NCBI GenBank assembly: GCA_022508895.1
Contig: JAFLUH010000001.1
Coordinates: 1-64,000, forward strand
From: Oscillospiraceae bacterium
GTDB lineage: Bacteria; Bacillota; Clostridia; Oscillospirales; Ruminococcaceae
DNA: 64,000 bases
Reading direction: 5' to 3'
Shown here: positions 18,566-39,315 of the stretch, piece after piece
Layout of the letters: every line of letters begins with the position of its first letter
Position numbering within the stretch: position 1 is the first letter of the stretch
Program-made: the position numbers and the translations under genes
The notes under the pieces: generated by a model
Told to the model about the DNA's origin: nothing
Database searches by the model: none
The model's input: the letters and a program-made list of their open reading frames with translations, nothing else

Positions 18566-18917
18566 GGGACCGTAAAGGTTTCGACGGGGGCTGTGAACCT
18601 TGCTAAGCATGCAGAGTTCTCCTAAACTCTTTAATAATGGGTAATTTTAAAATTAAACGCAGATTACAATTCTGAACTCGTAGCTGCCTAATCGCAGCTG
18701 CCGTCCTGTCGGAGAGTACTGCGGCTCCGGTCCGGGCGTCACTCAGCAGTGAACGTTGTCGGTGATAGCCTTGTAACCGTCAATGAACCAAAGGGCTACC
18801 GAACCGTTATCCCGTCTGTCGGAGCACGGTAAGGGAATTTCAAAAGGCTGACTAAGCATGTAGAAATGTGAGCGGATCGGCTTTCGGACGCGAGTTCGAC
18901 TCTCGCCGGTTCCACCA
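18566..18917 (+). ncRNA. ssrA: tmRNA
   Basis: GGGACCG ... CGGTTCC acceptor with ACCA; GTAAAGGTTTCGACGGGGG 5' signature; tag ORF GCAGATTACAATTCTGAACTCGTAGCTGCCTAA = ADYNSELVAA*. Confidence 0.97.
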
Positions 18918-18921
18918 ACAA

Positions 18922-18963
18922 AAAACGACAAGTTTCGACAAAAAAGAAACCTGTCGTTTTTCT
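18922..18963 (+). terminator. tmRNA terminator (copy 1 of duplicated terminator)
   Basis: AAAACGACAaGTTTCgacaaaaaaGAAACcTGTCGTTTTT. Confidence 0.88.
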
Positions 18964-19061
18964 TTAACTTGTAATGTCAATATCTAAAATAAAATTCTTT
19001 TTTATTGGTTAGACAAATGAGAACCTCAATTTTGATATCGAGCATACTGAAGTTGTGGTTC

Positions 19062-19089
19062 TTGATTTTTATGCTCGAAAGTGATATAA
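19062..19089 (+). promoter_or_regulatory. Putative promoter of methyltransferase leader, embedded in interleaved inverted repeats
   Basis: TTGATT-16 nt-TATAAT; TCGAGCATA (19038-19046)/TATGCTCGA (19070-19078) and AGAACCTCAATTT (19020-19032)/AAGTTGTGGTTCT (19050-19062). Confidence 0.6.
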
Positions 19090-19148
19090 TTTTCACGCAG
19101 GCAGTGTTATTATATACCTGTGTACCATTAAAGAAAGGGTGAGTTAAT

Positions 19149-19205
19149 ATGAAAAAAACAGAATTTGCAGGAGTAATAAAAACCGGGAGGGATACAATAC
19201 TATAA
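19149..19205 (+). CDS. Putative 18-aa leader peptide MKKTEFAGVIKTGRDTIL
   Basis: RBS AAGAAAGGG; stop codon abuts the CCCTCCC strand of an attenuator hairpin. Confidence 0.5.
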   Translation: MKKTEFAGVIKTGRDTIL

Positions 19206-19225
19206 CCCTCCCTAGCTAATGGAGG
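19185..19225 (+). promoter_or_regulatory. Putative translational attenuator: GGGAGGG / CCCTCCC / GGAGG(RBS)
   Basis: GGGAGGG 19185-19191, CCCTCCC 19206-19212, RBS GGAGG 19221-19225; strands compete. Confidence 0.55.
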
Positions 19226-19231
19226 AATTGT

Positions 19232-20041
19232 ATGTCTTTTAACTGGATCGATCCAACCGAATATTCTTTTAACTGCATTTTGTTGATGGACAAATTCATT
19301 ATTCGTCAAATCTGTATGGCAAGCTGGTATGATGAAGAATACTTAAAAAATTTAAGCATTGCACTGGCTTATAATCCTGTTGTAGCATGGTATTGCAAGG
19401 AAAAAGCGCCGGAAATTGCGAATGATGTGGACAGACTGACAGCCGTAGCACCAACGGGATGTACAAATGAGCATGTGCAAAAAGCCGAATGCTTTATACT
19501 TGACCGTCATGACTGGGCAGTAGTTTATGCCTATCCTGAAGTGATGAACGAAAAATGTCCGTACATTTATAACTGGGATAAGGAAAGACTTTTTGAACTG
19601 ACTGATTTTACCGACAAAGTGGTTCTTGATGTCGGTGCGGGAACAGGCAGATTAACATTTGCTGCTGCGGAAAAAGCTCGACATGTATATGCCGGTGAAC
19701 CGGTAGACAGGTTGCGTGAATTCATGCGTGAAAAGATTGCAAGGGAACAAATTCATAACGTTACGGTATTGGATGGATTTTGCGACTGCTTGCCGTACGA
19801 GGATAACACCTTTGATATTGTTATGTCCGGTCATGTGATAGGAGATGATTATGACAAGGAAATCAGCGAACTGGGACGTATTACGAAAAATGGTGGCTGG
19901 ATTCTTGATTGTCCCGGAGAGGATGACAGAAAAAAGGATATGCCAGACCAGAACCTTATTAAGAGAGGATTTGAATATCTCTACTATTTGGGTAAAACCG
20001 GAGGAGATATTTACCGTTATCGAAAACAAGTTGTTAAATAA
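19232..20041 (+). CDS. Class I SAM-dependent methyltransferase
   Basis: KVVLDVGAGTGRLTFAAAEKARHVYAGEPVDRL; YEDNTFDIVMSGHVIGDDYDKEISELGRITKNGGWILD. Confidence 0.9.
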   Translation: MSFNWIDPTEYSFNCILLMDKFIIRQICMASWYDEEYLKNLSIALAYNPVVAWYCKEKAPEIANDVDRLTAVAPTGCTNEHVQKAECFILDRHDWAVVYAYPEVMNEKCPYIYNWDKERLFELTDFTDKVVLDVGAGTGRLTFAAAEKARHVYAGEPVDRLREFMREKIAREQIHNVTVLDGFCDCLPYEDNTFDIVMSGHVIGDDYDKEISELGRITKNGGWILDCPGEDDRKKDMPDQNLIKRGFEYLYYLGKTGGDIYRYRKQVVK

Positions 20042-20136
20042 AACTTGAGAGAAGTCGTATCCTAATTTTTTATAAGCTAATCTGAACCCCTATCAATGAG
20101 GGAAGAGAAAAATCTTTTTTGCAGCGGTCAGACAAC

Positions 20137-28381: not shown

Positions 28382-28529
28382 AATGATAAATCCTTACAAA
28401 CTAATATTTACATCAGCTGTGAGCGTACATTAAAACCCATAATGGACTTATATTATTGAGACCAAAAAAATTTTTAAGCCCCATAACGTAAAGTGAAGCA
28501 CAGACCGACACTACGCTGCGTCTTGCACT

Positions 28530-28641
28530 ATGTGCCCAATATTGCGGTCATGCGAAGCATGATGAATTCCCTTAATGGTAATTCAGGCAATGTTGGGCGT
28601 ACTTTAAGGGGGAGTTGCTTGCGGCTTCCCCTTAAAGTACT
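28530..28641 (-). ncRNA. Copy 1 of tRNA-3'-trailer structured element (four-helix), abutting tRNA-Leu
   Basis: P1 28599-28640; P2 28588-28598/28534-28544; P3 28564-28584; P4 28549-28561; covaries with 39133-39245. Confidence 0.7.
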
Positions 28642-28724
28642 TGGTGCGCCTGACAGGACTTGAACCTGCACGGTTTCCCACCGGAACCTAAATCCGGCGC
28701 GTATGCCAATTTCGCCACAGGCGC
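28642..28724 (-). tRNA. tRNA-Leu (anticodon TAG)
   Basis: Acceptor GCGCCTG/CAGGCGC + ACCA; anticodon arm CCGGA-TTTAGGT-TCCGG; T-loop TTCAAGT; long variable arm. Confidence 0.95.
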
Positions 28725-39058: not shown

Positions 39059-39132
39059 AGGGGTGTGGTTCAATGGTAGAATAGGGGTCTCCAAAACCTT
39101 TGACGTGGGTTCGATTCCTACCACCCCTGCCA
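39059..39132 (+). tRNA. tRNA-Trp (anticodon CCA)
   Basis: AGGGGTG/CACCCCT acceptor, G discriminator + CCA, loop CTCCAAA. Confidence 0.95.
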
Positions 39133-39245
39133 AGTATTTGAGGGTAGTCGCTTTGCGACTACCCTCAAATACGATCCAATCCCTCTTGGATTCCCCTTAA
39201 GGGAATCCATTTTTGCTGCGCAAAAACCGAGGTATTGGACATGTA
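39133..39245 (+). ncRNA. Copy 2 of tRNA-3'-trailer structured element, abutting tRNA-Trp
   Basis: P1 39134-39172; P2 39175-39185/39229-39239; P3 39188-39208; P4 39210-39226; covaries with 28530-28641. Confidence 0.7.
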
Positions 39246-39281
39246 CTGCAAGATAACACCGTCTGCTTATTATGCAGATTT

Positions 39282-39315
39282 GATACGCTTTCAGGGAACT
39301 GAGGGCGTATTTTTC
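39282..39315 (+). terminator. Terminator of the tRNA-Trp + element transcript
   Basis: ATACGCtTTCAGggaaCTGAggGCGTATTTTT. Confidence 0.7.

Follow-up and report, generated by a model that had tools for sequence, protein, structure and literature searches.

The element that begins at the CCA end of the tRNA-Trp gene in the DNA studied here is probably a MITE-like cassette, short and non-coding, from a mobile-element family that inserts exactly past the 3' CCA of tRNAs, with a compact serine recombinase as mover. The recombinase apparently takes this role, as suggested by the ends that its own element and the cassettes have in common. In the proposed pathway, a unit that begins with a hairpin directly past CCA and closes with the right end AAATCTTTTTnGTnACnATnTCACA would be joined to the tRNA in a serine-recombinase exchange with CA as its core, and non-coding as well as gene-bearing units would be moved in trans. 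Because the final CA of AAATCTTTTTnGTnACnATnTCACA repeats the CA of the tRNA, the tRNA would stay intact while the old downstream DNA and its terminator are pushed outward. The model predicts a joined circular unit in which the right end is fused to the left end, reading ...CACA followed directly by AGTTGAAAG... or by AGTAC..., and the near-perfect helices of the cassette would be kept as DNA structure.

Cassettes past tRNA genes, and a probable one past the tmRNA gene, in the window

The window, the whole stretch of 64,000 nucleotides that was analysed, contains two copies of the element, each next to a tRNA gene that had been named in a sequence-only reading and was found by ARAGORN, namely tRNA-Trp (cca) at 39059-39132 on the plus strand and tRNA-Leu (tag) at 28642-28724 on the minus strand. 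(G-, C- and L-numbers below denote genomes analysed, contigs and fetched loci, respectively.) With the tRNA-Trp CCA (39130-39132) as its left junction, the Trp copy occupies 39133-39259 of the plus strand and, judged from sequence and fold, is a non-coding cassette of the type termed form A below with a shortened right end. Its P1 hairpin (39134-39172), which is hypervariable among copies, begins 1 base past CCA and is followed by a three-way junction (39175-39239) in which P2 (39175-39185 with 39229-39239) encloses P3 (39187-39209) and P4 (39210-39226). RNAfold gave exactly the four helices that had been drawn by eye, with a folding energy of -61.1 kcal/mol (z -9.67) that was equalled by 0 of 200 shuffled sequences. 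The sequence GATAACAC at 39252-39259 (plus strand) is a probable remnant of the right end, the full G000 form of which is AAATCTTTTTCGTCACGATAACACA. It is followed at 39260-39314 (plus strand) by a hairpin and an intrinsic terminator, which represent either the native tRNA-Trp terminator, lying directly past CCA in relatives, or a form C cassette; the terminator itself, which the earlier reading had placed at 39282-39315, is visible at 39284-39314.

The Leu copy is a complete form A cassette bounded by CCA and a degenerate right end (28449-28641, minus strand), and is thus longer than the limits of 28641-28530 that had been assigned to it. Its fold was also stable (-47.3 kcal/mol, z -7.12, 0 of 200 shuffles as good), and its right end, AAATTTTTTTGGTCTCAATAATATA at 28449-28473 (minus strand), had the best PWM score in the window (14.2, compared with a maximum of 10.1 in the reversed-window control). 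The observation that pairing is kept despite sequence change was borne out by six copies of the source genome, in which 14 of 34 pairs were altered on both sides. By contrast, the P2 mismatch said to lie at an identical position in both copies is one pair apart when counted from the conserved CCAA (CCAAT-c in Trp, CCAA-c in Leu). Given the decayed right end of the Leu copy and the shortened one of the Trp copy, both are probably immobile now.

Complete tRNA-linked units begin with the first base past CCA, close with the common right end AAATCTTTTTnGTnACnATnTCACA and come in three non-coding forms. Form A consists of P1, the three-way junction, ACGTGCTGC... and the right end (~165-190 bp), form B of a terminator hairpin, a second hairpin, the three-way junction and the right end (~230 bp), and form C of a short palindrome, a terminator and the right end (~90 bp). 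Gene-bearing units and a 1.1-kb recombinase-only element close with the same right end, the motif of which was found at 12 sites in G000 and 15 in G005, while the reversed-pattern control gave 0 and 1, respectively; a recognisable right end was present within 200 nt in only 20 of 119 copies of the repeat. Units can be stacked in tandem, each beginning directly past the CA of the preceding right end. Left ends were found either past a tRNA CCA or past a right end, with 6 and 5 cases for the recombinase element, 16 and 4 for form A, 11 and 6 for form B, and 18 and 7 for form C. At one locus of another genus (L340 of G305), a compact recombinase element is preceded by tandem units of ~170 bp that differ in their left end, CGCATTGAAGCCC..., and close with a right end of the type described above.

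A third case in the window is probable past the tmRNA gene (18566-18917, plus strand), which ends in CCA at 18917. The next 1,217 bp (18918-20134, plus strand) would form a gene cassette with a terminator-like left end, an ORF of 269 aa as cargo (19232-20041, plus strand) encoding a SAM-dependent methyltransferase (PF13649, PF08241), and a right end, AAATCTTTTTTGCAGCGGTCAGACA at 20110-20134 (plus strand), with a PWM score of 12.6 that is weaker than that of the Leu copy and exceeds the control maximum of 10.1. A second copy of its left-end hairpin and then a response-regulator gene lie past this cassette, and its left end is also found past right ends on contigs C21 and C42 of G000.

Distribution, linkage to tRNAs and nature of the helices

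A covariance model built from the six copies detected 12 copies in the source genome, as well as 33 (the maximum per genome) and 27 in two relatives. Within the genus, 18 of 71 genomes had at least one copy, whereas the 16 tested from other genera had none. Named MAGs with the core are mostly Oscillospiraceae/'Ruminiclostridium' (labels 'Lapin' and 'Mgla'), plus NALB MAGs. Thus, homologues as well as covariation and a link to tRNAs were found, as the sequence-only reading had anticipated. Its pairing of the Trp and Leu copies stands as far as the tRNA link is concerned, but the pair is not special to the window, given the 12 copies in the genome, several of them away from tRNAs.

The fetched loci contain 119 distinct copies. 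For 41 of them, a tRNA on the same strand lies no more than 300 nt upstream; 17 adjoin CCA directly, and the tRNA-linked copies span 17 tRNA kinds, while the chance expectation is below 1. Since the loci were picked by the repeat and not by tRNAs, the link is not circular. A repeat wholly unrelated to tRNAs, as suggested by the other source-genome copies, around which ARAGORN detected no tRNA, was ruled out by this wider survey. In most relatives checked, the tRNA-Trp CCA runs directly into the terminator and the element is missing, while G051, another species, carries a complete unit at tRNA-Trp, indicating that the repeat has been gained and lost. These empty tRNA-Trp sites, together with the copies away from tRNAs, also rule out a tRNA-specific trailer conserved by descent.

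Comparison of G005 with G084 revealed different units at tRNA-Arg(acg) and tRNA-Arg(cct); at tRNA-Ser(cga), form A adjoins CCA in G005, and in G084 form C lies between CCA and form A. These few cases fit a scheme in which new units would insert beside the tRNA and older units would be pushed outward. Cloverleaf copies in reverse orientation were also seen adjoining the 5' end of tRNA-Lys, tRNA-Phe or tRNA-Arg (L059, L064, L065, L263, L271, L273 and L021). An inverted right-end-like sequence past G015 tRNAs (CCA followed by TGAAACACTGACAAAAAAGAT...) was considered as a possible attP left arm, and was discounted as evidence because it belongs to a shared tRNA terminator block. A shared block, CCA followed by TGAAACACTGACAAAAAAGATTTTTTGCCCACAAA...TTTGTGGGCAAAAAA, is common to several different tRNAs and also occurs past lone tRNA-Arg 3' fragments (L199, L200, L205 and L206 of G015; L207 of G008).

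Many copies are away from tRNAs, as are most of those in G005 and G084, where many consist of P1-P4 only and sit inside another, GTTGACAGT-type repeat. One of these tail-less copies has an exact empty site, corresponding to a 91-bp P1-P4 insertion without target duplication and without a right end, and the cloverleaf can therefore also spread in another way. This raises an alternative in which P1-P4 would be a palindromic DNA repeat in its own right (REP/MITE-like), spread by a separate mover or through replication and hitch-hiking in tRNA cassettes with no involvement of the serine recombinase. That forms A and B are otherwise different and have the cloverleaf core in common also speaks for it. 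However, 17 copies adjoin CCA exactly, and form A behaves as one block from CCA to the common right end. We regard the independent palindrome as unlikely but as the most serious competitor, because the tail-less copies and the reverse copies adjoining tRNA 5' ends need a second route of spread. The dispersed repeat GTTGACAGTGTACAGTTGTGG...CCACAACTGTCAACTGTACACTG, which has a variable central hairpin and hosts the 91-bp cloverleaf, is intergenic in G005 and G084 (e.g. L053 and L228) and is missing from the orthologous G083 site.

The stable folds, the strong covariation and the location between CCA and terminator, because of which the element is probably co-transcribed with the tRNA, are what would be expected of a structured RNA trailer selected as RNA structure for tRNA 3' processing, termination or regulation. 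A structured RNA, however, is expected to show compensatory changes that include wobble pairs. In a helix census of 39 copies, many of them related so that the counts are not independent, G-T and A-C were counted as equal mismatches, and 1,446 Watson-Crick pairs, 34 A-C, 17 other and 0 G-T were found; 30 of the 34 A-C mismatches fell in P2 and mostly represent one conserved C-A mismatch. By contrast, the acceptor and T stems of 43 tRNAs at the same loci contained 461 Watson-Crick and 53 G-T pairs (53 of 516, ~10%). Moreover, whole helices are replaced from copy to copy and are still near-perfect, P3 being TTGAATTTCCC/GGAAATTCA-like in some species and TTGCGGACTCAGTCCGCAA-like in others. Selection on RNA structure can hardly account for the total absence of wobble in ~1,500 pairs, which would instead come from palindrome correction at replication or from a single-stranded DNA intermediate. 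The Rfam search that had been proposed, run at gathering and permissive thresholds, yielded nothing that reached the gathering score, the best match being RF03534 (34.4 versus 50 bits, mostly via the long P1 hairpin), and a known RNA family was thereby ruled out. With the element also missing at the same tRNA in most relatives, many copies away from tRNAs and both orientations relative to tRNAs occurring, an RNA trailer appears improbable, and the element is probably not an RNA family. Hence, of the two readings proposed earlier for the element at tRNA 3' ends, a structured RNA not yet described and a small mobile hairpin, it is the mobile element, multi-copy, patchy and with an exact preference for CCA, that has survived. 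Absence of wobble pairs may serve more generally as a simple test separating DNA palindromes from equally covarying RNA structures.

Recognition of the repeats by an IS200/IS605-type Y1 (RAYT) transposase would agree with hairpin ends and with insertion without target duplication. However, Y1_Tnp (PF01797) was not matched in the copy-rich genomes G000, G001, G005 and G016, and G014, the genome richest in Y1, has no copies. Such a mover is thus largely refuted, and we give it hardly any weight.

A compact serine recombinase and gene-bearing units

The reading preferred here, a cassette moved past CCA by a compact serine recombinase, draws on recombinase elements with the same anchoring. In G005, a serine recombinase element begins at the CCA of tRNA-Ala(cgc). 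All seven close homologues examined in the genus carry the identical 18 nt AGTTGAAAGCTACATTTT exactly past CCA (of tRNA-Ala, -Gln, -Met or -Thr) or past a right end. Of three further homologues, two from a different genus and one from a different family, one each begins at tRNA-Leu(cag), at a right end and at tRNA-Leu(caa), the left end of the other-family homologue having 2 mismatches. The left end therefore lies exactly past a tRNA CCA (6 tRNA kinds) or a right end at 10 of the 10 loci examined. In G086, the tRNA-Gln CCA is followed by 1,110 bp with the recombinase as sole gene and then by the right end.

The protein is 283-289 aa in length in five species (~285 aa), and it contains the Resolvase (PF00239, 2.2e-29) and Recombinase (PF07508) domains and nothing further. 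Together with a YCRVS motif holding the active-site serine, PF00239 places it in the serine recombinase superfamily. It is not a large serine recombinase of 400-650 aa, since the ORF ends with the Recombinase domain and no zinc-ribbon/coiled-coil C-terminal part is found. The best PDB match was 3g13, the catalytic domain of a conjugative-transposon recombinase, and the top NCBIfam match was CcrB, at 118 of 900 bits and far under cut-off. A complete recombinase gene is absent from the G000 assembly, in which contig C42 breaks off after a left end and the first codons (ATGAACAAAATCA), so that the G000 recombinase may lie in an assembly gap. A close homologue is also absent from G001 and G051.

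One recombinase would be expected to require some common left-arm signal, and in this respect the observed ends count against the model. Left ends vary by unit type, and form A and the recombinase element have the right end and the position of the left junction in common, but left-end sequence only at AGT. The lack of a complete gene in the G000 assembly and of a close homologue in G001 and G051, like the small share of copies with a recognisable right end (20 of 119), also speaks against the model.

Units with other cargo were found between right ends in G000, with a GH31 glycosidase in contig C21 and flavodoxin/DUF4440/LysR/aldo-keto reductase genes in contig C42, while in G001 a recombinase-type left end is followed by a gene that, judged by eye, encodes a MATE-like transporter. 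We tentatively propose, with somewhat less than even confidence, that Oscillospiraceae-type gut bacteria possess a tRNA-anchored cassette system, an integron-like device in which the ~285-aa serine recombinase would insert units past CCA at nearly every kind of tRNA (and at tmRNA), and genes for metabolism, efflux and other functions would be captured and stacked in tandem together with non-coding hairpin cassettes. On contig C17 of G005 (L209, 30-49 kb), a 3.3-kb unit behind tRNA-Ala(cgc) contains the compact serine recombinase and an HD-domain (dGTPase-like) gene; beyond it lie units of form C and form B, and further on the DNA carries genes of the SIR2-STALD and TIR types as well as a tyrosine recombinase, and the region could be a defence island.

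If the model is true, a serine recombinase that uses the CCA common to nearly all tRNAs gains dozens of safe sites per genome, and this would explain the fast turnover downstream of tRNAs in the genus and the pile-up of small gene and non-coding cassettes there.

Comparison with known systems

The 3' ends of tRNAs are classic integration sites of tyrosine integrases. In a review of IMEs, tRNA-targeting elements are listed with tyrosine recombinases, and site-specific serine ones at intragenic sites (PMC5704250), while a large LSR survey kept only proteins of 400-650 aa and does not mention tRNA in its text (PMC10083194). With half the size of known LSRs, the compact enzyme falls outside the length window of that survey and could interest genome-engineering groups. 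Our search of open-licence papers found no description of palindromic tRNA-linked repeats in Ruminococcus, of tRNA-targeting serine recombinases or of serine-recombinase cassette arrays.

Elements with large serine recombinases (Tn4451/TnpX type, serine-integrase IMEs and phages) resemble the present system in PF00239 plus PF07508, a very short common junction core and no target duplication seen. However, their enzymes have 400-650 aa compared with ~285 aa here, where the protein ends with the Recombinase domain, and here the CCA ends of numerous different tRNAs are targeted. SCC elements with Ccr recombinases likewise combine a serine recombinase with insertion at the 3' end of an essential gene and tandem stacks, but here there are many target genes, gene-free units down to ~165 bp and a recombinase half as long. 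Integron cassettes are similar in being small, tandem and often single-gene units with one end in common, a new unit being seen beside the anchor; they differ in that a serine rather than a tyrosine recombinase is found at the junctions here, the anchor is a tRNA rather than attI, and the right end is not of attC type as far as seen. REP/BIME with RAYT and MITEs are also short, non-coding, palindromic multi-copy repeats, whereas the present elements have no Y1 transposase, a positional tie to the tRNA CCA and a three-way junction. In E. coli, the tyrT tRNA operon carries the Rtt repeats, which are also arranged in tandem directly past a tRNA gene, but no Rfam match to the Rtt family was obtained here and the unit anatomy is unlike. 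In our judgement, serine-recombinase elements with non-autonomous cassettes are of an already known kind, and what is new here is the class of target and the compact enzyme.
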